The notes: generated by a model from the sequence alone, not told the origin. Shown: positions 10,671-53,838, counted from the first letter of the stretch. The stretch: DNA of 64,000 nucleotides from Nitrosopumilus sp. K4 (GCF_018128925.1 NZ_CP067007.1:1094164-1158163); one strand, 5' to 3'. Numbers and translations: made by a program.

Positions 10671-11954
10671 ATGTCCGAATTAAAACGGCATATGGGATTG
10701 TTCCATCTGACAATGTATGGGGTAGGTCTAATTTTAGGTGCTGGAATTTATGTTCTGATTGGAGAGGCTGCAGGTATTGCAGGGGATTCTGTATGGATAT
10801 CTTTTATGCTTGGAACTATTGTGGCAATCTTTGCAGGATTAAGTTACGCTGAGCTTACATCTGTATTTCCAAAAGCTGCTGCAGAATATACTTTTGTAAA
10901 AAGAGCATTCAAGAATAATTTTCTAGGATTCCTCATAGGGTGGTTAACTGCCATCACATCTGTAATAACTGCATCAGTAGTCGCATTAGGTTTTGGCGGT
11001 TACTTGTTAAAGTTCATAGACATCCCAATTATCTTGTCTGCAGCAGGATTGATTGTTGCGTTATCTGTTGTAAATTTTATAGGGATACGGGAGTCTGCTT
11101 GGACAAATACTGTTTTTACGATAGTTGAAGCCGCAGGCCTTATTTTGATCATAGTTATTGGTTTTACATTTGTATCTCCAGAACCGGTTGATTACTTTGA
11201 CAGTCCTACTGGATTATCAGGAGTTGTCATTGCCTTTGTCTTGGTGTTTTTTGCTTTTATCGGATTTGAGGACATGGCAAATGTTGCAGAAGAAGTAAGA
11301 CAGCCAAAAAAGAATCTACCACGTGCAGTTATCCTTTCTGTAGTAATATCAGGAGCAATATACATTCTAGTTGCTTTGGCTGCAGTTAGAGTTGTAAATT
11401 GGCACGAACTTGGTCTTTCAGCAGCTCCAATGGCAGACATTGCAAGTAAGGCACTAGGTGAAAAAGGAAACATCCTACTGTCGTCTATCGCATTGTTTGC
11501 TACTACAAATACAGTATTGATAACATTGGTTGCAGGTGCAAGAATTTTTTATGGTATGGCAAGAGATGGTTCACTACCGTCAAAACTAGGATTGGTACAC
11601 TCAAAAACTAAGACACCTTGGATAGCAGTGCTCGGAATTATGATTGCATCTGCCATCTTTACGTTGGTAGGAGATATTGTTATTGTTGCAAACATCACTG
11701 TGTTTGCCATAGTCATTACATTTGCAATGATTAATCTTGCAGTTATTGTGTTGAGGTATACCGAACCAGACATCGAAAGACCATTTAAGATCCCATTTAA
11801 TATCAAGAGATTCCCAATACTTCCACTATTTGGATTAGCAATTACAGTATACATGATGTTTCAGTTTGAATTTGAAATAGTTGTAGTAGGTTTAGGGATT
11901 ATAGGGGCAGGTTGTGTCGTGTATTTGATCTATGGCAAGAAGAAAAGAAAATAG
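10671..11954 (+). CDS. APC-superfamily amino-acid permease
   Basis: The 427-residue product has about 12 transmembrane helices and the amino-acid transporter hallmarks: HLTMYGVGLILGAGIYVLIG at the first helix with the unwound GAGIY motif, and FAFIGFEDMANVAEEVRQPKKN in the sixth helix region. It most likely imports amino acids or related amines by cation symport. It stands alone; the ZIP transporter gene converges on it 37 bp away. Confidence 0.9.
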   Translation: MSELKRHMGLFHLTMYGVGLILGAGIYVLIGEAAGIAGDSVWISFMLGTIVAIFAGLSYAELTSVFPKAAAEYTFVKRAFKNNFLGFLIGWLTAITSVITASVVALGFGGYLLKFIDIPIILSAAGLIVALSVVNFIGIRESAWTNTVFTIVEAAGLILIIVIGFTFVSPEPVDYFDSPTGLSGVVIAFVLVFFAFIGFEDMANVAEEVRQPKKNLPRAVILSVVISGAIYILVALAAVRVVNWHELGLSAAPMADIASKALGEKGNILLSSIALFATTNTVLITLVAGARIFYGMARDGSLPSKLGLVHSKTKTPWIAVLGIMIASAIFTLVGDIVIVANITVFAIVITFAMINLAVIVLRYTEPDIERPFKIPFNIKRFPILPLFGLAITVYMMFQFEFEIVVVGLGIIGAGCVVYLIYGKKKRK

Positions 11955-42086: not shown

Positions 42087-42180
42087 GTTTGAATTCGACC
42101 GGAAAAAGTACTATCTTGTTTCTGAGTTCCAATCGGATGGTTTCCGTGCTAACATCGGTTCAAAAACCAGATTTTGATGT

Positions 42181-42270
42181 CTATATTGTAGAAGATGCAT
42201 TCCATCTTTGTTCAAATTTATTATTTAGATCTTGTAGTATGTTCCCAGACGTTTTTTTATCAAATTTGAC
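42181..42270 (-). pseudogene. Separated C-terminal end of the interrupted PIN-like gene
   Basis: This minus-strand frame of 29 codons plus stop begins exactly at the left end of the 70-bp repeat (codon GTC at 42270-42268): VKFDKKTSGNILQDLNNKF followed by EQRWNASSTI. It lacks a start codon. Joined to the frame of the PIN-like gene at 47546-47827 (ending ...ERRMYL) it gives an unbroken RMYLVKFDKK beta-strand-like ending. It is therefore probably the 3' end of that gene. Confidence 0.55.
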
Positions 42271-42340
42271 GACACTGTTCAGTCTTGGGTAGATTTACCT
42301 GACTTTTTCTGACTGTTCATTTAGGGACATTTGGTGTTAA
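42271..42340 (+). repeat. Left terminal inverted repeat (70 bp, perfect)
   Basis: Starts GACACTGTTCAGTCTTGGGT and ends GGACATTTGGTGTTAA; it is the exact reverse complement of 47475-47544. The match continues to 42351 with two mismatches. The specificity-subunit stop is 11 bp further in. Confidence 0.95.
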
Positions 42341-42361
42341 GTTAGGGTGATAAACTCAAGT

Positions 42362-43432
42362 TCAGAGTTTGACAACAGTATCAATCAACTTATGAAGTTC
42401 TTGTGCGACCTTGCTTTTCATCTGGTACAATTTTTCATATTTCTCTGCAATTTCTTCTTGCTTATCAATATCATAATCCCCTGTATTATTAATTGGGATA
42501 TCTACAACCACACTTTGTAAATTGATTTTTCCTAATTTTTTGGTAAAACTATAACCCAGTTTTCTTACTTCCTTCTCCAATACATATTTCATGTAAATTG
42601 GATCAATTTTTCCAACTAATGATTTTTTGATTTTTAATACTCTATGATCTTCATTGGTGGAGAAAACACCTTCTCTGAAAAAGAATTTACCTACGGAACC
42701 GTTTCGATTCCATGTCAAACAATCACTATAATATTTTATGTTTGGAAGTTTTTTGATATGTCCTAACACCATACTTCCTGATTTGGAACATCCATAAACT
42801 GGGATTTTTCCTTTATTGTCATTACACAATCTTTTTGTCATTCCTGAGTTAGTTTCAGGGAAATCAAAAAGAGTTGAAACTTCGACAGATTTTTTCTTAT
42901 AATTGTCATTTATTTCCAAGAGTGCATTTTCAAATTCATCTCGCTGTTGTCTTAATTGCTCTTTCAGTTTTTTTAGTGAGTTGTATTTTTTTACAAGTCG
43001 TAATTGCTCGTCCTCATCAAATTCACCAGTTGCTTTAACTGGGATTTCTACATTAATCACAGTCATGTTTGATAATGATGAACGTAAAGTGCGATCAAAT
43101 CCCAATTCGTATTTCTTGATTTCTAGTTGATGTACAAGATATTCTGGAAGTATATTGGAATCAAGGATTTCAATCACACCACAATGATCGGTATTTCCAA
43201 ATTTTTCCCCTTTATGCTTTACATTAAATTCAAAATTTCCATCTATCCCCCATAAGACATAATCATTATTGAAATTCTTGATATTTGAGGTATCCTTGTA
43301 TCCCATAGGAACAAAGACATTAGCACTGTAAATTGGAATTTTTCCTGTGCTTTGAAAGACTTCGCTTAGAAGCACTCGTTTACCTATACTTAGTTTGAAC
43401 AGGGATTCATCATTTAGGGAAACTTCTTTCAT
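42362..43432 (-). CDS. Specificity (S) subunit of a restriction-modification system
   Basis: The 356-residue product has two target-recognition domains (about residues 1-140 and 180-320), each ended by a coiled-coil spacer (VKKYNSLKKLKEQLRQQRDEF and EKYEKLYQMKSKVAQELHKL), the S-subunit architecture in which each half reads part of a split site. Conserved phrases include KIPIYSANV and KIPVYGCSKSG. It overlaps the methyltransferase gene by four bases (ATGA), so the two are translated together. At 356 residues it is close to the length of BcgI B-type subunits. Confidence 0.88.
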   Translation of the reverse strand: MKEVSLNDESLFKLSIGKRVLLSEVFQSTGKIPIYSANVFVPMGYKDTSNIKNFNNDYVLWGIDGNFEFNVKHKGEKFGNTDHCGVIEILDSNILPEYLVHQLEIKKYELGFDRTLRSSLSNMTVINVEIPVKATGEFDEDEQLRLVKKYNSLKKLKEQLRQQRDEFENALLEINDNYKKKSVEVSTLFDFPETNSGMTKRLCNDNKGKIPVYGCSKSGSMVLGHIKKLPNIKYYSDCLTWNRNGSVGKFFFREGVFSTNEDHRVLKIKKSLVGKIDPIYMKYVLEKEVRKLGYSFTKKLGKINLQSVVVDIPINNTGDYDIDKQEEIAEKYEKLYQMKSKVAQELHKLIDTVVKL

Positions 43433-45651
43433 TGGAATTGACCTAACTCTTTAGTTAATTCATTGATTTTTGTTGCAACTTCTTGTGTTTTCTCTACAAA
43501 TTCCTCTAGAGTTAAAACAGTCTCTTCTTCTTCAATGCCTAATTCAATTTTTTCATCTTTTGACCACCATCTATCTACAGCCCAATGTTGCTCAGGATCA
43601 AATTTCTCTATTGGTTGAATTTTGCATCTTTTATCATCAGTGGGGAATGTACTTCTTATACCCTTAAATTGATTGAAAAGAGGCACCATAGTTTCTAAGT
43701 CATTTTCATCAATTTGGAACCTATTAACATCCAACGTTTCTCCTATATCACTGACCAAATAAGTAAACACAGGTGTTGTCTGTTCATTTTTGTGTCTTTC
43801 ATCATGTGACTCGTTTGGTTTTTTGGTTATGCATAAAATGTATGTCTTTTTAGGAGTAGTGTAAAATGCATTAATCGGGAGTGAAATTATTCCGTCTATA
43901 ATACATTCATCTCTTACAAATGCACGTAACTTACTTTCATTTCTGTTGAGAATTCCATCAGGAATAATCACAAATGCTTTTTTGTCTGGCTTCAAACTAT
44001 TGATTATCCATTCCAAAAATAGGCTTTCCACTCCTAAAGCGTTAATTTTATAAAATTTTTTGAGTGTTGCATTATTTTTTATTGCAGTTTTGTAATTACT
44101 GCTACCACTCGTTACATAGGGTGGATTAGTAAGAATCAGATCATACTTGTCATACTCTGTTTGTGCCAATGTTCCAAGAATAGTATTTGTTATGAGATTC
44201 ATTGTAGAGTTAAATAAATTCGAGAATTCTTTTGCCATTGCATCATTTTTCTTCAATAATTCAGACAGAAAAATCAACATGTTGGCTTTGGCTAGAATTA
44301 TGGTGAGTTGTTCTTCTTTCTCAAAACCTTTATCGAAACCAGAAAACTCAAGTCTAGGTATGATCTTGTTTCCTGTTATTTTGTAGTAAAAATTGACCCC
44401 GTCATCCAAAGTTTTCATTGGTTCAAGAATAAAACCGCCAACTCCACATGCTGGATCGCAAACTTTGGAGTCTTTATCTAATTTTTCAATATCTGACATC
44501 TTTATCATTGCATCTACAATATTTCTAGGAGTGAAATATTGCCCCCAATTTTTTTTACTAATGCTTTCTTTCATAAATTGTTCAAAAACCTTAGATTTGA
44601 AATCGGGATTGATATTCTTCATTTCTCCAAATGTGTTAAATCGTTTTAAGATTTTGTAAAAAGCGTCACTGTGCTCTGGAACTGTAGGATTAAGAACAGT
44701 TCCATTTATGATTGTGGTGTTATCAATCGTGGATGGTGGAAACATTTCTTTAAGATATGGTCTTACATTTTTTGTGTAATTCATGAATGCTTTAGCAGGA
44801 TCTAACGCAAAAATATCTTTGAAATTAACTTTATTTCCACTATTATCTTCTGTTAAAATATTGAGATCACTTAGATATTTGAATATGAATAACTCAACGA
44901 ATGTATAAAGACATTTTTCAGGCGTTGCACCACTTACCGACCATACATCTTGCCAAATTTGTTTTGCTAGTTTTGTAGGGTCTATTTGAATATCATCTAC
45001 AATTTTTGAATTTTTTGGTGAAAGTATATTTCTAATTTTTTCTACATCTTCCAAAGTTTGTTTTGTATTGGATGTTAATTTTTTGACATCTAATTCATCT
45101 GTCTTTTGATTAATAGCAAATTTGTTTGTGAATGGTTTGTCTGTTGTATCTATGATTATGGAATAACTTCTTTTTGCTTTGGTTGTTCTATCCTCATATT
45201 CGGTTATTTTGTTTTTTTGTTTGGGGTTAAACCAGATGTAAGAATTATTATCCGTTGCAATGCCTATTTCAGCATTTAGTATCTGACATACATCATTACA
45301 TTCTTCGATAGCATTTTTTTTATCTGCTTCCGTCTTAAATTTACCATCGTCCTTGTGTTCCAATATGCAAATAGTTTTGATTTTCTTTTTGTTTCTCCTA
45401 TCAACCAATAAACCATCAGGTTTACGGGTTTCATATTTTTTGTAATCTTTATTTGGAATGATTTTATTTTTTTTTAATTGTTTTAGAGTGGTGTTTCCTA
45501 ATAGATAGTATTCATAATTACCTATGCGTAATCCATGTCCATCAGGATATTTTGTATTTAGTTCTTCACTCACAGATACATTACCAATATCATGTTGAGA
45601 TGTCCCTTTTAAAATACAGCGATCTTTCCTTACGGATAGATTGGTTAGCAT
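43429..45651 (-). CDS. Fused nuclease and N6-adenine methyltransferase (BcgI A-like, type IIB/IIG)
   Basis: The 740-residue product has an N-terminal PD-(D/E)xK nuclease-like region (KPDGLLVD at 77-84 with Asp79, and ICILEHK with Glu98 and Lys100), a helical linker and an HsdM-like methyltransferase with DPACGVGGF (Asp399) and NPPY (509-512). Nuclease and methyltransferase in one chain plus a separate S subunit, with no helicase (HsdR) gene anywhere nearby, is the layout of BcgI-type enzymes that cut on both sides of a bipartite site. Confidence 0.8.
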   Translation of the reverse strand: MLTNLSVRKDRCILKGTSQHDIGNVSVSEELNTKYPDGHGLRIGNYEYYLLGNTTLKQLKKNKIIPNKDYKKYETRKPDGLLVDRRNKKKIKTICILEHKDDGKFKTEADKKNAIEECNDVCQILNAEIGIATDNNSYIWFNPKQKNKITEYEDRTTKAKRSYSIIIDTTDKPFTNKFAINQKTDELDVKKLTSNTKQTLEDVEKIRNILSPKNSKIVDDIQIDPTKLAKQIWQDVWSVSGATPEKCLYTFVELFIFKYLSDLNILTEDNSGNKVNFKDIFALDPAKAFMNYTKNVRPYLKEMFPPSTIDNTTIINGTVLNPTVPEHSDAFYKILKRFNTFGEMKNINPDFKSKVFEQFMKESISKKNWGQYFTPRNIVDAMIKMSDIEKLDKDSKVCDPACGVGGFILEPMKTLDDGVNFYYKITGNKIIPRLEFSGFDKGFEKEEQLTIILAKANMLIFLSELLKKNDAMAKEFSNLFNSTMNLITNTILGTLAQTEYDKYDLILTNPPYVTSGSSNYKTAIKNNATLKKFYKINALGVESLFLEWIINSLKPDKKAFVIIPDGILNRNESKLRAFVRDECIIDGIISLPINAFYTTPKKTYILCITKKPNESHDERHKNEQTTPVFTYLVSDIGETLDVNRFQIDENDLETMVPLFNQFKGIRSTFPTDDKRCKIQPIEKFDPEQHWAVDRWWSKDEKIELGIEEEETVLTLEEFVEKTQEVATKINELTKELGQFQ

Positions 45652-45652
45652 A

Positions 45653-45841
45653 CTAACTTTCCCACTTTTCTATGATTGCTCGTTTTTTCCCTTTTTGTTC
45701 TTCAATTTTCCACACTAGTAAATCACCTACATCTACTTCCAATTGTTCTGCAATATCTTCTGGTATTGTAGCCCTAACTGATTTAGAATTTGTTGATGCT
45801 CTAGCAACTTTAGAAAGTGAAGGCATTACTGATTTCATCAT
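45653..45841 (-). CDS. AbrB/SpoVT-type DNA-binding regulator
   Basis: The 62-residue product has the swapped-hairpin motif of AbrB/MazE proteins: SVRATIPEDIAEQLEVDVGD followed by LLVWKIEE. It is the first gene of the restriction-modification operon; its stop lies one base from the nuclease-methyltransferase start. It probably controls the operon (a C-protein-like role) and may recognise the ATTACCTA repeats just upstream. An antitoxin role is the alternative, but no toxin gene is paired with it. Confidence 0.8.
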   Translation of the reverse strand: MMKSVMPSLSKVARASTNSKSVRATIPEDIAEQLEVDVGDLLVWKIEEQKGKKRAIIEKWES

Positions 45842-45842
45842 A

Positions 45843-45939
45843 ATTACCTATATTACTATGTAGTCGATCTATTAAACATTACCTAATTAGAATAAATAGT
45901 AAGAATAGTAAAAGTAATGTTTATTACCTAAATTACCTA
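45843..45939 (+). promoter_or_regulatory. Four ATTACCTA repeats in the divergent promoter
   Basis: Identical octamers at 45843, 45878, 45923 and 45932, all in the same orientation, in the 108 bp between the AbrB-type gene and the transposase gene. The last two are nine bases apart. They look like binding sites that could set expression of both restriction system and transposase. Confidence 0.65.
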
Positions 45940-45949
45940 TATAGTAATT

Positions 45950-47293
45950 ATGACAGAATTACGAAAAGAGAAAGCAATTCAAATCTTCTCTACTCAATCA
46001 GTTAGAAAAATTACAAAAAATAACTATGTGGTTATGTCACAATCCAGTAACAGAGAATACATTGTTAGAAAACTATCTAATGCAGATATTTGGACATGCG
46101 AATGTCCTGACTTCACATATAGATTAACCCGAAAAGATGACAAACATTGTAAGCACATAATCAGTGTACAGATACTACAGAATTCCATAAATGATGAAAA
46201 CAAGATTGAGAGAATAGAAAGACCAAAGATATGCCCCAAATGCTATTCAACTTCCATAGTCAAAAATGGATTACGAAAAGTGAATAATGGAATAAAGAGA
46301 CAAAGATATGCATGCAAGCAATGTTCCTACAAGTTTGTCTTAGGTGAAAATGGATTTTCCAAAGTAAGTTCTGATCCAAAAATCATTACTGAATCAATAA
46401 ACCTCTACATGTCTGGAATGTCTTTTAGAAATATTTCAAGACATATCCAAATGACACACGATCAAGTGATTAGTCATACTGCAATCTACAACTGGTTCAA
46501 AAAATACATGGGAATAATCCGAGAACATGTTGATTCCATCATGCCACAAACTAGCGATGTTTGGTCATTAGATGAGATGATGCTAAATGTCAAAAATACT
46601 GAAAAGCATGGCAAGGGATTCTATGACTGGTTATGGACTATAATTGATCCACATACTAGATTTGTCCTTGCAACAGAAGTCTCAAAAAAGCGAGAAATCA
46701 TTGATGCAAAAAACATCATCAGAAAGGGAAAGAAAACCACATCAGTAAAACCAAACTATGTAATCACAGACTCCCTTCATTCCTATGAGAAGGCAATCAG
46801 ACATGAACTTGATGCAAGGGTCACAGCCCACATCAAGACAAAATCACTTTCTGACGGATTCCAAAACAGACCAATTGAGAGATATCATAACGAGATAAGA
46901 GAGAAACTAAAGGCTAGACGTGGACTGGGAAATGACAAGTCAGCAGAAGAGTTTTGCGAGGCATATAGAGTCTATCACAACTTTGTAAGACCACATACAG
47001 GACTGCCAGACAACATCACTCCTGCACAAGCCTCAGGTATTGACCTTGACTTGGGAGAGGACAAAATCAGGGAACTAATCTCACAAAGCACAGAACAGAA
47101 AAACTTTGCAACCCAGTTAGGAAAACGAATCAAGAAAGTCTCAATCTCAAATGAGGGCGACTGTATCAAGGTGATTCCTAACGGATGGATTGACAAATCA
47201 GTCTGGCGAGAGATAAATGACATTCTAAAACTGAGTGAGTTCAGTTGGCTATCCAATGGTAAGGATAGTTGCTGGATGAAACTACTAGAATAA
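45950..47293 (+). CDS. DDE transposase, IS6-like, with N-terminal SWIM and zinc-ribbon domains
   Basis: The 447-residue product has a SWIM zinc site (WTCECPDF ... HCKHI, about 48-70), a zinc ribbon (CPKCYSTSIVKNG ... CKQCSYKF, about 92-125), a helix-turn-helix region and a DDE catalytic core with Asp208 (WSLDEM), Asp274 (VITDSLHSY) and Glu310 (RPIERYHNEIRE), spacing 65 and 35 as in the IS6/IS240 family. An integration product would normally carry short target duplications, which are not seen. All catalytic residues are intact, so it may be active. Confidence 0.9.
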   Translation: MTELRKEKAIQIFSTQSVRKITKNNYVVMSQSSNREYIVRKLSNADIWTCECPDFTYRLTRKDDKHCKHIISVQILQNSINDENKIERIERPKICPKCYSTSIVKNGLRKVNNGIKRQRYACKQCSYKFVLGENGFSKVSSDPKIITESINLYMSGMSFRNISRHIQMTHDQVISHTAIYNWFKKYMGIIREHVDSIMPQTSDVWSLDEMMLNVKNTEKHGKGFYDWLWTIIDPHTRFVLATEVSKKREIIDAKNIIRKGKKTTSVKPNYVITDSLHSYEKAIRHELDARVTAHIKTKSLSDGFQNRPIERYHNEIREKLKARRGLGNDKSAEEFCEAYRVYHNFVRPHTGLPDNITPAQASGIDLDLGEDKIRELISQSTEQKNFATQLGKRIKKVSISNEGDCIKVIPNGWIDKSVWREINDILKLSEFSWLSNGKDSCWMKLLE

Positions 47294-47324
47294 TCCTAAA
47301 TACCATTTCTTTTTTTATTATTTT

Positions 47325-47459
47325 ATGTATAAAGCAATATGTGTACAATGTAGTTTTCAATTTAGAGGAAAAACCAAAGAAGATTTAGATTCAAAGTTTT
47401 TTCCACATGAAAAAGAGACTGGGCATAAACGTTACAAATGGGATCAAATTATAGAATAA
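47325..47459 (+). CDS. Zinc-finger microprotein (44 aa) inside the transposon
   Basis: The 44-residue product has CVQC (Cys6, Cys9) and later histidines in FFPHEKETGHKRY, a C2H2-like arrangement with a basic end. It begins 32 bp after the transposase stop and ends 16 bp before the right repeat, so it belongs to the mobile unit. Function unknown. Confidence 0.6.
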   Translation: MYKAICVQCSFQFRGKTKEDLDSKFFPHEKETGHKRYKWDQIIE

Positions 47460-47474
47460 TTCCATCTCCCTAAG

Positions 47475-47544
47475 TTAACACCAAATGTCCCTAAATGAAC
47501 AGTCAGAAAAAGTCAGGTAAATCTACCCAAGACTGAACAGTGTC
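47475..47544 (-). repeat. Right terminal inverted repeat (70 bp, perfect)
   Basis: Exact reverse complement of 42271-42340. Its outer part supplies the last ten codons and the stop of the broken PIN-like gene, showing that the repeat was placed into that gene. Confidence 0.95.
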
Positions 47545-47827
47545 TTAAATACATTCTCCTTTCAGCCTTATCCGCAGAATATTTCTCAATCTGTATTGCA
47601 TGAATTCTTGAATTTTCTAAAATGTCTAAGTATGCCGTATAATCTCCTGTAATTAGATTACAACACTTTTCTTCACAAAATCTCCCTATTGTCTTATCTC
47701 CACTTCCTTGTTTTGGTGCTGGTTCTGTTCCAACTTTGTAAATTATCTCATAATCTTCTTCAACTTTTGATTGATTGTCTTTAATCCATCCTAAAGCCTG
47801 TTCATCGATGAGTACTTTGTGAACCAT
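47513..47827 (-). pseudogene. PIN-like (DUF5615-type) nuclease gene, 3' end replaced by transposon repeat
   Basis: The 104-residue frame has a PIN-like start (MVHKVLIDEQALGWIKDNQS), the GDKTIGRFCEEK segment and NLITGDYTAYLDIL with acidic residues expected at the metal site. The last codons after MYL (RHCSVLGRFT) lie inside the right inverted repeat, so the original end was lost; it is found at 42181-42270. As a relative of VapC-type toxins it could be an RNase, but no antitoxin gene is next to it. Confidence 0.7.
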
Positions 47828-47832
47828 TTCTT

Positions 47833-48351
47833 CTAAAACTTCACATCGCCAAATTTTGTATTTTTAACAATAACAAAACCATCTTCCAATTTTACATGAT
47901 TTTGCATTTCGGGGAATTTTTCTTTAATTATCTCATTTGTAATCAGTTTTTTATCTTTTAAAATCTCAACCAACCCTACTATGTCAAATTTTAATCTCAT
48001 CATTTCATTTCGAATATTTTCAATCTGTTCATTTTCAAATTCTGGAGGGATATTATATACACTCAATGCAGGAACAGCTTTAAGATATTCTGATAACATC
48101 TCATCTTCCGATATTCTGTAATAATTGTCTGCTAACCCTGTGGCATGACCCATTAACATCTCAACATGAAGTGATTTCATGTGCTTTTCTGTCATTGTTT
48201 TGAAATATTTTCTAAATCCATGATCTGCCTTAAACTCATGTCTTTTTTCTCCATTTTCTAGAGGTTTTCTAATTCCCTGAGCCCATAATGCTCTTTCAAT
48301 TAACTTTTGACTTTGAATTTTCAGTTTTAATTGCTTTATCTGTTTGGGCAA
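47833..48351 (-). pseudogene. Tyrosine recombinase (integrase), N-terminally truncated
   Basis: The 172-residue frame contains the C-terminal catalytic part: His44-x2-Arg47 in KADHGFRKYF, MGH (His69) in EMLMGHATG and the nucleophile tyrosine in DNYYRI (77 or 78). The core-binding domain and the first catalytic arginine are missing. The start overlaps the helix-turn-helix gene by 56 bp, which places the truncation there. It is the remnant of an integrated plasmid or virus. The PIN gene follows five bases after. Confidence 0.75.
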
Positions 48352-48604
48352 GTAAATCCAAATTCATTTCAATTAATTTATCAAAAGATAGAACAGTTTG
48401 GTGTATTGCAAGTTTTGTTTTTTCTAGTGCATCTTTATCATTTGAAATACCATCTATTGCCTCATGAATGTATTTGTAAACGGTCTTTTTGTCATACTTG
48501 GTTTTATCAATAATGTATGATGGTGAATAGCCTAAAGTAAATAATGTAACAATATTTTTTTTAATTTCTTTTTGTTTTTGAATTTCAGGTCTTCCTTTTC
48601 TCAC
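48296..48604 (-). CDS. Helix-turn-helix protein of the integrated element
   Basis: The 102-residue product has a recombinase/resolvase-like helix-turn-helix (MRKGRPEIQKQKEIKKNIVT, TLGYSPSYIIDKTKYDKKTV) and a helical tail. It may be a copy-control or transcription protein. The gene starts 37 bp from the first of four TTATAGAACTATAA repeats, which are its likely binding sites. Confidence 0.65.
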   Translation of the reverse strand: MRKGRPEIQKQKEIKKNIVTLFTLGYSPSYIIDKTKYDKKTVYKYIHEAIDGISNDKDALEKTKLAIHQTVLSFDKLIEMNLDLLAQTDKAIKTENSKSKVN

Positions 48605-48640
48605 AAAGTTGTATTTTTTTGGAAAAATATAAGAAAATCG

Positions 48641-48726
48641 TTATAGAACTATAAAATTTTGGAGAAAAAATTATAGAACTATAATGAAAAATTATAGAAC
48701 TATAATGAAAAATTATAGAACTATAA
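48641..48726. repeat. Iteron-like array: four copies of TTATAGAACTATAA
   Basis: Near-palindromic 14-mers begin at 48641, 48671, 48692 and 48713 (steps of 30, 21 and 21 bp, i.e. about three and two helical turns). The first and last copies are parts of a 32-bp direct repeat that continues AAATTTTGGAGAAAAAATT. It may be an operator for the helix-turn-helix gene or a plasmid-like origin. Confidence 0.75.
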
Positions 48727-48811
48727 AATTTTGGAGAAAAAATTCCTGTACCATTTTTTCCCATTTAATTCCAAAGTAGATTTTTTTACTCCAACAACAA
48801 AACAAAACCCA

Positions 48812-49003
48812 GTGAACTTCAACTGTGTATTTCCAGATTGTAGCTTTAAACAAAATAATATAGAAGAGAAAGACTTTGTTGATCATCTAAGAGAATCACA
48901 CAAAGATCAAATCAAAGAGATTGCTGAAAAACAAGACATTCCGATTCACATGGCCGAAATGATAACGACATCAAACTCCAAGGTCTTCATAAATTCAGGC
49001 TAG
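48812..49003 (+). CDS. C2H2 zinc-finger protein (63 aa)
   Basis: With the GTG at 48812 the product starts VNFNCVFPDCSFK: Cys-x4-Cys, then His-x4-His in DHLRESHKDQ, followed by a helical tail. An in-frame TTG at 48731 would give 90 residues but its codons lie in the repeat array and look non-coding. The gene is just outside the island; its stop overlaps the convergent gene by four bases. Confidence 0.6.
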   Translation: MNFNCVFPDCSFKQNNIEEKDFVDHLRESHKDQIKEIAEKQDIPIHMAEMITTSNSKVFINSG

Positions 49004-49269
49004 ACAAACTTCTCATACAGCTCACCAAGCATAGAGTTTATCTTCTCGTTTTCATGGTCCCCCCAAGAGTCTGACTTTATCCTGATGTGGATGCCGTGCG
49101 ATTCCAGCTGCGACACAATCTTGGGATACATCATTCCTACAAAAAACGACTTTTTGTCCAAGTGCATCTGGTCTGCCTTGTGCTGAAAATAACTTACCCA
49201 CTCAGACTCTGTGTCCTGAAACGTCTCCAAAATAATTGACTGTATCTTCTCTTCAGTTTCCCTGTCCAT
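49000..49269 (-). CDS. Small acidic helical protein, unknown
   Basis: The 89-residue product (ATG 49269) is mainly helical (RETEEKIQSIILETFQDTES, NEKINSMLGELYEKF) with a central Trp/His segment. No family is recognised. It overlaps the C2H2 gene by four bases at the stops. Confidence 0.55.
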   Translation of the reverse strand: MDRETEEKIQSIILETFQDTESEWVSYFQHKADQMHLDKKSFFVGMMYPKIVSQLESHGIHIRIKSDSWGDHENEKINSMLGELYEKFV

Positions 49270-49304
49270 CAAACTAGAAACAAGAGATCATGCAAAATAA
49301 AGAT

Positions 49305-50168
49305 TCAAGGTATTGCGTGGTTTTTCAAGCTCTTCGATACATTGATCAGCTGCGATTCAAGCTTTTTTGGGCTGGCAACATAAAAGTCGGCATAAAAGTA
49401 CCCGTCGTCTTCGTACAGGCCAGTGTCAACTCCCCGCTCGTGCAGCAAAGACAGGGTGTTTTGCTTTTCTTTATCATCAGAGAATCTCCTCTGGCGGATT
49501 GGCTCTATGTCGCTTTTGACCAAAGAGTATCCATAATAGTCAAAGTTTTTCTGAATCTTTTCCATGTCAAATATTCTCAGTACAGAGAATGCAAAGTACG
49601 GCTCGGAGTTTGATTCCTGTTTCTTTAGCATCTCAAACAGATTGGAAAACGCATGGTGGCCAATGTAGCCAATGCAGCCAGTTGCTATTACCATGTCAAA
49701 TGGCGGCACTTCTTTGATTGGAAGTTCTGTAGAATCAAGGTTTACGCAAATTCCCTTTTTGCACAGGCCCACATCTTCGGAGAATTTCAGTGCAGGCTCT
49801 GAGATGTCTATCTGGTAAAAATCCAGGTTTTCGTTTATTGGAAGGTTTGAAAAAAACTCTTTTGTGTCATCTTTTGTTGGAGGGTTTTTTCTCAAGAAAA
49901 AGTCATCAAGCTCGTACATCTCAAGGCCATACTTCATCAGTGCAGAGTTTATCCCGTAAGAGCTGCCAATGTCAAGTATGTTAATCGGCCTTTGCAGGTC
50001 TTCGCAAAGCTTGTCTGCAATTGCAAGATAAAGGGGCTTTGTCTTGTCAGGTATGCGATACTGGAGTCTCTTCATCTCCTCAAGGTACGCAGTAGGAAAT
50101 TCTCGGGTGTAAATGTTTGAAAAATCCTTTTTTATCTCTAGCTCTTCCATGTGGATAAACGATATCAT
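49305..50168 (-). CDS. Class I SAM-dependent methyltransferase-like protein
   Basis: The 287-residue product has motif I INILDIGSSYGINSALM (about residue 62) and a later DMVIATGCIGYIG (motif-IV-like) with an FSVLRIFD strand. The methyl acceptor is unknown. A second start at ATG 50150 is possible. The aldo/keto reductase gene lies 27 bp upstream on the same strand, suggesting co-expression. Confidence 0.75.
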   Translation of the reverse strand: MISFIHMEELEIKKDFSNIYTREFPTAYLEEMKRLQYRIPDKTKPLYLAIADKLCEDLQRPINILDIGSSYGINSALMKYGLEMYELDDFFLRKNPPTKDDTKEFFSNLPINENLDFYQIDISEPALKFSEDVGLCKKGICVNLDSTELPIKEVPPFDMVIATGCIGYIGHHAFSNLFEMLKKQESNSEPYFAFSVLRIFDMEKIQKNFDYYGYSLVKSDIEPIRQRRFSDDKEKQNTLSLLHERGVDTGLYEDDGYFYADFYVASPKKLESQLINVSKSLKNHAIP

Positions 50169-50195
50169 ACCACCCGTTATAAAACCACCGGGAGG

Positions 50196-51176
50196 CTATC
50201 GGTATTCATCGCCGCAGTCGCCAATTATCTCAAAGAGGTCATTTGCTTTTGCAGTTACTGCATTGATTGCAGAAACATCATCTGAATCCAGGTTTAGCTC
50301 AAAGGTCTTGAGGTTATCTTCTCTGTGTTGTGAGATTCCAAGTCTTGCGCCAATTATCACACCTGCTACTTGCGGCCTGTCTAGTATGTAGCGAGTCGCA
50401 ATGTTTGCAATGCTGCAGTGATGCTTTTTTGCAATTCCATCCAATACTGACAGCAGTTCCTGAAACAGGCCCCATCCTCCCCATGCATCGATCATGTTCT
50501 TGTATTTCTGAAGGCTTGCAGTAACCAAGTCCATCCTAGTTGGCTCATCTGCACCCAGGTACTTTTCAGAGAAAAATCCCCCAAGCAACGTGCCATATGT
50601 CAGCAGTTTCATCCCGTGCTTTTCAAAATACGGGGCCATCAACTTTTCAGGACGTGTATCCAAAATAGAGTACTGCACTTGGTTTGATGTTATCTCAAAT
50701 CCGCTCTCAACCATGTTCCGTACTCGCTCAGTGTCAAAGTTTGTCAGCCCAATGTGTTTGATCTTGTTTTCTTGCTGCAGTTTTGAGAGATGGTGCATTG
50801 CATCAAGGTAACTCAGGTCGTTATAGTCCCACCAGTGAAACTGGACCATGTCAAGGCAGTCAGTGTTCATCTTTTGCAGTGACTGCTCGATGTAGTGAGT
50901 CACAATGGAGCTGCTCATTGGTCCGGGGTTTGGGACAAACTTTGTCAATGCCTCAAAAGAAGAGTCGACTCTCTTGCTAAACTCCCCGATAAAAGATTCG
51001 GCTGGCCCGTAAATGTCAGCCAAGTCCCATGTAGTGAATCCCGCATTGTGATAGTTTACCATCTCATTGATTGCAGTCTCTGTGTCAATCTGCCCATGTG
51101 TGCCAGATACCTGCCACATCCCGTTTAGTATTCTGCAAATCTCAAAATCTTTTGCAAGAAATATTCTTTCAATCAC
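50196..51176 (-). CDS. Aldo/keto reductase
   Basis: The 326-residue product has the TIM-barrel AKR motifs: TTWDLADIYGPAESFIGEF with the catalytic Asp and Tyr, a lysine in EALTKFVPNPG, the histidine in MVQFHWWDYND, and VIIGARLGISQHREDN binding NADPH. It reduces aldehydes or ketones; the substrate is unknown. Likely transcribed with the methyltransferase gene. Confidence 0.9.
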   Translation of the reverse strand: MIERIFLAKDFEICRILNGMWQVSGTHGQIDTETAINEMVNYHNAGFTTWDLADIYGPAESFIGEFSKRVDSSFEALTKFVPNPGPMSSSIVTHYIEQSLQKMNTDCLDMVQFHWWDYNDLSYLDAMHHLSKLQQENKIKHIGLTNFDTERVRNMVESGFEITSNQVQYSILDTRPEKLMAPYFEKHGMKLLTYGTLLGGFFSEKYLGADEPTRMDLVTASLQKYKNMIDAWGGWGLFQELLSVLDGIAKKHHCSIANIATRYILDRPQVAGVIIGARLGISQHREDNLKTFELNLDSDDVSAINAVTAKANDLFEIIGDCGDEYR

Positions 51177-51207
51177 AATAACAAGTGTGATGATTTACCA
51201 TACATAG

Positions 51208-51999
51208 TTATTTCTCGCATCCAATCCCGTCACCATCACCGTCAAACCGATGAGGATCAGAGCCTGTAACCTTAAAGTTTCTTTGTGGAATCTCCCCACA
51301 ATCCAAGTCTGGCGGATAAGATGCAATGCATACATCCGGATATGACGGGTCACAATCATTTCGCATTGTATTTGCGATAGGTTCAGACACAGGTGTTCTA
51401 GGTTTTGTACATCCATAGTTTTGGGCCCAAGACTCGCCAGAAAACTCACTTGTCTGGCAGTATTGCATGGAAATTTCTGCATGTCCATTTTGCAGCAGCA
51501 TCTCATTTATCATGCCAGTCTCACAGTACACCTTGCCCACCATCCTGTCATAGACATCAATTGGCTGCAAGTCATCTTGGTCTATTGTAACCAAGCTCCC
51601 AACAGGACAAGACATTGCAGTAAATGACTTTGCCTGATAGTACCCAGCCTCATCAACCTCAGGAGCATCAACCAAGGACAGTCGAATCTTTGCATTTTCA
51701 GTGTAGAGGGTATCACCATCAACTATTCTTGTGACCTTTTGAGTCAGACACATTGCAGCACCGGAGCACTGGTGTCTTTGCACTTGGGGTTCAGTATCTA
51801 GTACAATAGAACAGCTGGCATACTCCCATGTCCCTCCCCTTGAAAGGCAGTCAGTTCTTTTCTTGTTTTCATCAGGTGGTGCGACTCCTGCAAAATCAGT
51901 TCTCTTGTCTTTCCATGTGTCTTGAGGAACTGTTGCAAATATTGCAACTGCTGCAATCACGCAGACTCCAATTATTCCACCAATTACTGCAAGGTTCAT
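51208..51999 (-). CDS. Membrane-anchored staphylococcal-nuclease-like protein with Excalibur-like motif
   Basis: The 263-residue product has an N-terminal helix, a cysteine-rich spacer, a thermonuclease domain (VTRIVDGDTLYTENAKIRLS, LVDAPEVDE with the Arg, Asp and Glu positions of the active site, and DRMVGKVYCETG with the second Arg) and a C-terminal DGDGDGIGCE calcium-binding motif of Excalibur type. It would degrade nucleic acid outside the cell. The cysteine content suggests several disulfides. Confidence 0.85.
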   Translation of the reverse strand: MNLAVIGGIIGVCVIAAVAIFATVPQDTWKDKRTDFAGVAPPDENKKRTDCLSRGGTWEYASCSIVLDTEPQVQRHQCSGAAMCLTQKVTRIVDGDTLYTENAKIRLSLVDAPEVDEAGYYQAKSFTAMSCPVGSLVTIDQDDLQPIDVYDRMVGKVYCETGMINEMLLQNGHAEISMQYCQTSEFSGESWAQNYGCTKPRTPVSEPIANTMRNDCDPSYPDVCIASYPPDLDCGEIPQRNFKVTGSDPHRFDGDGDGIGCEK

Positions 52000-52083
52000 T
52001 TTGAATTCAAGTGATTACTGCACGTTAAAAAAATTACCAGTCAATAAAATGTATTTTAGATGGAAATGCCCAACTAAAGATCC

Positions 52084-52395
52084 TTGAACCCATTATTTCA
52101 GCTAAGCACAAGAAAGTACGACAAGGAGATACAAATTGTAAGAGATGCACTAGAGCAGCTGCAAAAAGACTGCAACGTAACTGACGGATACAAGATAGAA
52201 GAGCCCTTTGAAAAGTTTGGATGGACTTTTTTTAACATCCAGATAAGCGAAGAGATGGCCCACATAATAGAGACGACAGGAATGATGGAAGGTGCACTTG
52301 GGTTTAGAATAGGAGAGCAGATGACTAATTTTATCGGACATTACCTAGAAGAAAAAGGAAGCAACGTCAGGATAAAAAAGATAGAGTACGGATAG
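52084..52395 (+). CDS. Small protein, unknown
   Basis: The 103-residue product from a TTG at 52084 has an alternating helix/strand pattern (KYDKEIQIVRDALEQLQKDC, EKFGWTFFNIQISEEMAHII) and ends SNVRIKKIEYG. No family is recognised. It precedes a small membrane-protein gene by 43 bp on the same strand. Confidence 0.55.
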   Translation: MNPLFQLSTRKYDKEIQIVRDALEQLQKDCNVTDGYKIEEPFEKFGWTFFNIQISEEMAHIIETTGMMEGALGFRIGEQMTNFIGHYLEEKGSNVRIKKIEYG

Positions 52396-52438
52396 TATCA
52401 AAGAGTAGCATCTATTATATCCCATCATCCCAATAATT

Positions 52439-52615
52439 ATGCTGATGAGCTGGATGATAGTTTTGCCAGCTGGAGTGATTGTAGGAATATTGTTTTCAAG
52501 TGCATTTCCAGACATGGCATCAGGAATCAACGAGGCGCTATCGCCTCAGCTTTATGCACTAGGGGACTTGCTAGTTGACAGAATCAGAGATGCAGCATCT
52601 TCGATTCTAAACTAG
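52439..52615 (+). CDS. Small membrane protein (58 aa), unknown
   Basis: The 58-residue product has one hydrophobic segment at residues about 5-22 (WMIVLPAGVIVGILFSSAF) and an amphipathic C-terminus (LYALGDLLVDRIRDAASSIL). It may be an oligomerising membrane peptide. Supported by the frame alone and by its position between small genes on the same strand. Confidence 0.5.
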   Translation: MLMSWMIVLPAGVIVGILFSSAFPDMASGINEALSPQLYALGDLLVDRIRDAASSILN

Positions 52616-52656
52616 AATTGCCTTACTTTTTATGTATAGAGCGAACATTATGATAC

Positions 52657-52842
52657 ATGGTACTATTGCTTGTTGCAATTGCAGTTGGCATCATCATTGT
52701 GACAGTACTGATTGTAAAGTACACAAAGACAAACCCAAGGGCAGTGCTTGGCATGGACAGAAAATGCAACAGGTGCGGAACTATAATTGACGGAGCAGAG
52801 TGTCCAAAGTGCAAAAATAACAAAATGTCATTTGGCGTCTAG
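52657..52842 (+). CDS. Membrane-anchored zinc-ribbon microprotein (61 aa)
   Basis: The 61-residue product has one N-terminal helix (MVLLLVAIAVGIIIVTVLIV) and a cytoplasmic or external zinc ribbon of CNRCGTI and CPKCKNNK. Such tethered ribbons occur widely in archaea. The stop overlaps the next, opposite gene by four bases. Confidence 0.65.
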   Translation: MVLLLVAIAVGIIIVTVLIVKYTKTNPRAVLGMDRKCNRCGTIIDGAECPKCKNNKMSFGV

Positions 52843-53060
52843 GCCTTGTGGTTAGAGTTTTTCAGAATCTCCAAGACATCATTGTTGCTTTTAATCCAGG
52901 TTTTAAGATAAGAGTAAAACAGATTCTCCAGGTCATCTACCAAGTCCTTTAGCTTTGGGTCTAGCTTCAAGTCAGCCAGATTATCGTCGATGTGCTCAAT
53001 GATTACCTTGAGGCCCTCATTTGAGGTCTCCAGTTTCCTTATCGCATCATCTATGCCCAT
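52839..53060 (-). CDS. Small acidic coiled-coil-like protein (73 aa)
   Basis: The 73-residue product is wholly helical and acidic (AIRKLETSNEGLKVIIEHID, LDPKLKDLVDDLENLFYSYL). No family is recognised. Convergent with the zinc-ribbon gene. Confidence 0.5.
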   Translation of the reverse strand: MGIDDAIRKLETSNEGLKVIIEHIDDNLADLKLDPKLKDLVDDLENLFYSYLKTWIKSNNDVLEILKNSNHKA

Positions 53061-53162
53061 ACAGATATGCAGATTTTTTGTGATATTAAAACTTCTAATT
53101 CAAAAATATGACAATTGATCGCTTAAATGAAAACAAATAGGAAAAATCAGTCACAAAAGGGA

Positions 53163-53255
53163 TTACTCAGACTTTTGCTTTGCAGTGTCAATACCAAACA
53201 TCTCTTTTCTTTTCTTGTTTGATAGTTCACAGTAGAAAACTTGGTTTTCAAACAT
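53163..53255 (-). CDS. Possible 30-aa protein
   Basis: A short frame MFENQVFYCELSNKKRKEMF followed by GIDTAKQKSE. Its composition is protein-like but there is no RBS, motif or homologue that I recognise. Kept only because nothing else explains this stretch. Confidence 0.25.
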   Translation of the reverse strand: MFENQVFYCELSNKKRKEMFGIDTAKQKSE

Positions 53256-53316
53256 TTCTGATTTGAGAGGTCTGCATCTGTATTAATACATTGATTATTG
53301 ATTCAGGAATCTACGT

Positions 53317-53796
53317 CTACAGGTTTTCGATGTCAAGCAAGACTACAGGACATGTGACATTTTCAACGATTTTTCGTGACACGCTTCCAAGACTGAGTAG
53401 TTTTTTGACCCCTTTTAGCTTTCTTCGTTTTGCCATGATCACAAGATCAATCTTTTCGTTTTCTATCATATCCAAGATCATCTCAGCTGCATCGCCAATG
53501 TCGACTTTGATTGCAGTCTCGATGTTGTTTTCCTTGCACTGTAATGCCTTTTTTTCTATCATTTTTTCAGCTTCTTCTTTTATGGAATCATTGACATTTT
53601 TTATCCTCTCAAGCAACACATTTCTTTCTGACTCGGCCAGGCTCCATGTAGGGGGGCTGTGTACTTGCTCAATTATGTGCAAAATGTAAATTTGAGACGA
53701 GAACCTTTTTGCAATCTCTATTGCATGTCGTAGTGCCTCATCTCCTCCAGCAGTACCTGCATGCGGCACTAGAATTCTATCGTACACAAAGTACAA
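53317..53796 (-). CDS. Universal stress protein (UspA family)
   Basis: The 159-residue product has DRILVPHAGTAGGDEALRHA at the start and KIDLVIMAKRRKLKGVKKLL with GSVSRKIVENVTCPVVLL at the end. The GSVSRKIV portion keeps the S-x(2)-K-type end of the ATP-binding motif, unlike the Usp at 7754, so it could bind nucleotide. It is a single gene next to the nitroreductase gene. Confidence 0.9.
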   Translation of the reverse strand: MYFVYDRILVPHAGTAGGDEALRHAIEIAKRFSSQIYILHIIEQVHSPPTWSLAESERNVLLERIKNVNDSIKEEAEKMIEKKALQCKENNIETAIKVDIGDAAEMILDMIENEKIDLVIMAKRRKLKGVKKLLSLGSVSRKIVENVTCPVVLLDIENL

Positions 53797-53838
53797 AACA
53801 AACAGATCATAATTAAACTATCAAGTGATTTTTCAAAT

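Follow-up and report, generated by a model that had tools for sequence, protein, structure and literature searches.

The segment at 42271-47544 of the Nitrosopumilus sp. K4 chromosome (5.27 kb, five genes) is very probably a unit transposon from a long-ended thaumarchaeal family, in which one IS6-like transposase moves all the DNA between the ends. Its passenger here is a restriction-modification (RM) system. Coordinates refer to the window, the whole stretch of 64,000 nucleotides that was analysed. The family is widespread in archaea and apparently undescribed; the genes it moves are diverse and often antiviral, and its insertions tend to lie shortly upstream of gene promoters.

Ends and gene content of the unit

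Over 86 nt, 95% of the bases in the two arms of the unit (42266-42351 and 47464-47549) are complementary, and a BLAST comparison of the arms gives an E value of about 4e-34. A chance origin of this inverted repeat was rejected. From the tips at 42271 and 47544 inward, the outermost 70 bases are identical between the arms, and the first mismatch is base 71. The perfect left repeat is found at 42271-42340 (similarity extends to 42351) and its perfect complement at 47475-47544. In the single-contig genome of 1.65 Mb, the 70-mer is present at two places, the two ends of this unit. The perfect 70-bp inverted repeats of the original prediction are confirmed. Three spaced TGTT..GGG motifs in the left repeat (starting near 42275, 42313, and 42334) are candidate transposase-binding repeats. 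The three-motif score of the window ends (33, where shuffles reach up to 34) is not significant alone, nor is the test significant for most other elements taken singly; when the elements are pooled, spacing peaks stand out at 28 and 37-38 bp.

The RM operon is on the minus strand. Its first gene (45653-45841) encodes a 62-aa AbrB/MazE-like regulator (Pfam MazE_antitoxin 9.7e-5, slightly under the curated cut-off). It is followed by the gene for a 740-aa nuclease-methyltransferase (43429-45651; Pfam N6_Mtase 4.8e-31), which has an N-terminal PD...ExK motif and then the N6-adenine methyltransferase motifs DPACGVGGF and NPPY. The 356-aa specificity (S) subunit (42362-43432) has two target-recognition regions, matches Pfam Methylase_S in two stretches (3.9e-14) and is called a specificity subunit by PADLOC. 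The plus strand encodes the IS6-like DDE transposase (447 aa, 45950-47293; Pfam DDE_Tnp_IS240 2.7e-16, NCBIfam IS6 1.8e-30, invariant residues present) and a 44-aa open reading frame (47325-47459), which has no Pfam match above the cut-off. Regulator, nuclease-methyltransferase, S subunit, and transposase are thus as originally predicted, while the "zinc" name of the fifth protein comes from a C-x2-C...H...H pattern alone. The genes are packed to within 10 and about 4 bases of the 86-nt arms on the two sides. The divergent promoter region of the RM operon and the transposase (45842-45949) contains inverted repeats (45857-45882 and 45914-45939) and direct repeats (at 45878 and 45923), a possible operator of the AbrB/MazE-like regulator. 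This regulator, encoded between the divergent RM operon and transposase, probably controls the RM unit.

Another way to arrange such genes is a composite transposon, in which the cargo lies between two complete insertion sequences. IS6 elements commonly form composite structures (PMC7986276), and RM systems flanked by insertion sequences are known (PMC3031569). However, each unit has one transposase gene, and the sequences repeated on its two sides are ends of 50-107 bp rather than complete insertion sequences. A composite transposon is extremely improbable and was rejected, as there is no second insertion sequence copy in the window unit.

Transposase and relation to IS6

The window transposase consists of a SWIM-like Cys/His motif, a zinc ribbon, a helical region, a DDE core (D208/D274/E310), and a C-terminal extension of ~60 aa. 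Long ends, a SWIM motif, and gene capture are also features of the eukaryotic Mutator elements; the likeness is one of analogy, since the transposase family differs. The catalytic core is that of IS6 (NF033587, E 1.8e-30; Pfam DDE_Tnp_IS240; D208/D274/E310). The whole protein does not reach the NCBIfam IS6 cut-off (106.2 vs 125 bits). Where IS6 elements have short terminal repeats and a single gene in ~0.8 kb, the window unit has perfect 70-bp repeats (50-107 bp in most relatives) and five genes in 5.27 kb. The 8-bp target duplication typical of IS6 is absent around the window copy and exact in 32-33 of 42 relatives. "IS6-like", as the unit was first called, therefore fits the catalytic core but not the whole element, whose long ends, multigene cargo, and sub-cut-off score depart from the IS6 definition. 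The AlphaFold model of the transposase (pLDDT 68; best match ISCth4 with a low TM-score) agrees with a transposase fold of the generic RNase H-like kind and shows nothing more specific.

The thaumarchaeal elements share with the IS6/IS26 family, including its archaeal members, the DDE core and its spacing, CTGT near the tip, the 8-bp duplication (in siblings of the window unit), and MITE-like derivatives. Unlike IS6/IS26 elements (ends of ~14-34 bp, ~0.8 kb), they mostly have ends of 50-107 bp and are 1.9-7.7 kb long. They also differ in the multigene cargo, the SWIM-like region, the C-terminal extension, and the fixed placement upstream of promoters. A 2021 review of IS6 gives ends of 15-20 bp and mentions one member with one passenger gene (PMC7986276). 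Harmer and Hall give ends of up to ~34 bp and doubt that the archaeal members belong to the family (PMC6807381).

Most named relatives of the transposase come from Nitrosopumilus and other Thaumarchaeota. No relative was found in the viral contigs searched, and PLSDB plasmids have at best bacterial IS6 cores, ~25% identical and aligned to no more than 64% of the query. The transposase, with its N-terminal SWIM-like and zinc-ribbon region, would recognise the long inverted ends, presumably by binding their repeated motifs, and everything between the ends would then be moved by this one enzyme.

The restriction-modification passenger

The nuclease and the methyltransferase are in one subunit and the S subunit is separate, which is the Type IIB layout, with the nuclease called by motif and not by fold. 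Type IIB/IIG BcgI-like systems likewise combine a PD...ExK nuclease and an N6 methyltransferase in one protein and have a two-part S subunit. BcgI characteristically cuts the DNA on both sides of its site; the window system is likened to it by gene layout. One protein would both cut and methylate, and the second would pick the site. The AlphaFold model of the nuclease-methyltransferase (the A subunit) is uninformative (pLDDT 43).

Homologues of the nuclease-methyltransferase at 56-57% identity are found in one other genome (G067) and on a phage-like contig, and they keep both the PD...ExK and the methyltransferase motifs. On the phage-like contig (L206:4001-7258) the nuclease-methyltransferase and specificity parts are fused into one 1085-aa chain with the same layout. 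Given these homologues and the conserved motifs, it is plausible that the two-gene A+S system is a complete RM unit with predicted restriction activity. Neither such ends nor a transposase was found with the RM homologues on phage-like contigs or with the G067 system. The RM module has therefore been exchanged independently of the ends. The original prediction would be at odds with these genes standing without repeats in the same chromosomal place; the RM homologues that lack repeats are in other places.

Related elements and their mobility

Relatives of the transposase are found in 94 of the 251 genomes searched. The nearest ones (55-71% identity) are from G058, G168 (two), G187 (two), G188, and G193, and near relatives with both flanks on the contig are all placed between inverted repeats of 74-103 bp. 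In a first survey, 93 loci chosen by transposase and not by cargo yielded 42 elements with inverted ends. The other 51 loci are truncated, decayed, at contig ends, or ambiguous; inverted-repeat calls at L082, L091, L122, L127, and L132 were left out as ambiguous. The 42 thaumarchaeal elements are 1.9-7.7 kb long (mean 4.06 kb), and most have ends of 50-107 bp. An exact 8-bp duplication flanks 32 of the 42 by a strict rule and 33 by another, against 0.02 expected from mismatched pairs. From a second set, 12 of 41 loci passed as further elements. The window unit has what defines the family, long inverted ends around one IS6-like transposase and cargo.

Further copies with other cargo had been proposed as a sign of mobility. 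They exist as siblings: transposases 55-71% identical to that of the window are found, wherever the contigs reach far enough, in units of like build whose cargo is unrelated. The exact 70-bp end is confined to its own genome among the genomes searched, and a single end, 74% identical, is present in G029.

Could the unit be a defence-island cluster that came to lie by chance between two MITE copies or solo ends, with the transposase as a chance neighbour? Solo ends and small transposase-less elements do exist, and RM genes occur elsewhere without ends. However, dozens of independent elements flanked by exact duplications repeat the order of end, cargo plus one transposase, and second end, as do all the close siblings whose contig includes both ends. 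Such a coincidence is very unlikely.

Empty sites provide another line of evidence. When the flanks of one sibling (L095) are joined with one copy of the duplication, the resulting sequence has an unbroken match in six other genomes of that sibling's genus. Empty sites are thus found for a sibling and not, in exact form, for the window copy. A self-mobilising RM transposon, as originally proposed, is borne out for this kind of unit by the sibling cargo, 8-bp duplications, and sibling empty sites; the window copy itself lacks a duplication. Judged from these sequence comparisons, the mobility of units with long ends, a transposase, and exchangeable cargo is well supported.

Smaller insertions are also present. 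The exact 8-bp target of L095 is occupied in four further genomes by 221-888-bp insertions with family-like tips (L202-L205), which may be MITE-like derivatives or decayed copies. A 2.35-kb transposase-less unit with 155-bp ends (L040:6475-8823) contains metabolic genes of aldo/keto reductase-like and epimerase-like kinds; it adjoins a complete element at L040, and the duplication is common to both.

Exchange of cargo

DNA methyltransferase or RM cargo is recognised by Pfam in 10 of the 42 elements (the window, L041, L042, L043 twice, L056, L088, L097, L104, and L116). For example, L041 has a type III RM system, and L042 has a HaeIII-family endonuclease, a D12-class methyltransferase, and a GIY-YIG protein. 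At L043, the first element carries a methyltransferase and an S subunit, and the second carries these two functions together with a CAP12-type TIR protein and a TATA-binding protein (TBP) gene. Other cargo recognised by Pfam includes AAA_15 ATPases (L052 and L069), AbiV (L090 and L108), Fic (L095), and DUF6602 (L055), while the genes in the L040 element are of no recognised kind. Proteasome-subunit-like cargo is seen in five elements (L078:7295-8128, L092:6295-7269, L093:8321-9247, the second element of L097 at 10975-11787, and L137:10950-11759; Pfam Proteasome 1e-8 to 5e-18).

The transposase tree of the 42 elements is not sorted by cargo. Transposases 78-85% identical are found with differing cargo or none; L098, for example, has only a transposase, and the first element of L097, with a transposase 85% identical, has a methyltransferase and S system. 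Element DNA has more RM-type N6_Mtase genes than expected: of the 20 in 28 genomes (counted by hand, E below 1e-10), 4 lie within the 0.3% of the sequence that the elements make up, where 0.06 would be expected.

State and setting of the window copy

The window copy has no 8-bp target duplication (outward of its two ends the DNA reads GTCAAATT.. and TTAAATAC..) and no adjoining promoter. The gene next to its right end (47545-47827, minus strand) has had its last codons replaced by that end: a G047 homologue (64% identity) continues ...YLIRIL*, while the window gene runs into the repeat. An exact empty site of the window copy was not found: in comparisons with same-genus genomes, the similarity breaks off at the leuS stop codon. 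In one same-genus genome (G003) leuS lies next to a nitroreductase gene, and in the window the two are 11.7 kb apart (42087-53838). The unit is therefore in a variable island with other genes. Within the same interval, an open reading frame at 47833-48351 resembles, by eye, the C-terminal part of a tyrosine integrase; it has no Pfam match.

The window copy has probably been rearranged since insertion, and a later adjacent rearrangement would have removed the duplication. According to the IS6 review, flanking repeats are lost by intramolecular transposition, and the missing duplication fits such a loss. Alternatively, the unit may be a dead relic, a former transposon of the family now immobile and fixed, and kept by restriction selection or by chance. 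The lack of a duplication and promoter context, the truncated neighbour, and the single transposase copy in the genome agree with a relic. On the other side, the ends are perfect over 70 bp, the transposase with its DDE triad is intact, and so are the RM reading frames. A relic is a serious but rather unlikely alternative to a copy that may still be active as a transposon.

Target choice

Beyond the duplication, typically on one flank, is a TATA-like hexamer: 33 starts fall at offsets 6-8, where ~1.1 are expected (~0.38 per offset genome-wide). A TATA sequence is at offset 7-9 bp in 23 of the 33 duplication-bearing elements, with 9 and 5 in the adjacent windows and 0-3 elsewhere. In 17 flanks an open frame starts 30-39 bp out (2.6 expected), and ATG peaks at offsets 35, 36, and 38. 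In the second set, the preset TATA pattern is present in 6 of the 12 elements. Note that the TATA spacing is common and not universal in the family, and that the window copy has neither the duplication nor the spacing.

Elements also insert next to each other. The tip of another element is directly beyond the 8-bp duplication in 18 of 92 flanks (0.64 expected). If each new insertion preserves the promoter as well as its spacing from the 8-bp target, such tandem stacking would be a natural result. Insertions at L078, L085, L097, and L186 are upstream of seemingly the same promoter in different genomes (GGTACCGTACCATACGGTA.. in the first three), which suggests recurrent hot spots. A TBP gene (L043:13323-13880; Pfam TBP 2.2e-31) is among the cargo of this family, whose insertions lie beside TATA boxes.

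The spacing might instead come from survival, with intergenic insertions upstream of core promoters persisting and no targeting involved. Nearly all insertions are indeed intergenic. However, the peak is only ~3 bp wide, several genomes have separate insertions upstream of the same type of promoter, and the same 8-bp target is reused by different elements, all of which makes survival bias improbable. Target choice would rather involve recognition of the promoter complex, with the transposase targeting promoter-bound TBP/TFB. The yeast elements Ty1/Ty3 and Tf1 also insert upstream of promoters; this is an analogy, and the mechanism differs. We lean, with some reserve, towards a large undescribed thaumarchaeal family that uses promoter-bound TBP/TFB as a landing pad and inserts just upstream without breaking the core promoter. 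It would reuse the 8-bp target to build tandem arrays, and defence genes (RM, AbiV, TIR, Fic, and others) would be assembled and reshuffled in the process. Promoter targeting is the most novel part of the finding.

Relation to known elements and significance

Movement of an RM system in association with insertion sequences is known in E. coli (PMC3031569). tIS, which are insertion sequences with passenger genes, and RM systems flanked by insertion sequences have in common with the long-ended family a transposase that moves accessory genes, including RM systems (PMC3031569). The long-ended family differs in being an archaeal unit transposon with its own long ends and exchangeable cargo. Casposons and cryptic integrated elements of Thaumarchaeota are also integrated and carry methyltransferases and defence genes, and tandem insertion is reported for casposons (PMC6563490). 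The window unit differs from them in having a DDE transposase and neither Cas1 nor PolB; a casposon was rejected after a Pfam scan of its five proteins found no Cas1. According to the same thaumarchaeal survey, IS-like transposons consist of one or two genes, and archaea have yielded no composite DNA transposon with passenger genes (PMC6563490). No description of a family of long-ended cargo transposons was found in the open-access literature searched.

The family would give ammonia-oxidising archaea a carrier for defence genes, and the cargo swaps behind a constant transposase are a natural record of defence-module capture. With its fixed distance to the TATA box, insertion would offer an archaeal counterpart of the promoter-directed integration seen in yeast, and whether basal transcription factors choose the target would become directly testable in a simple system.
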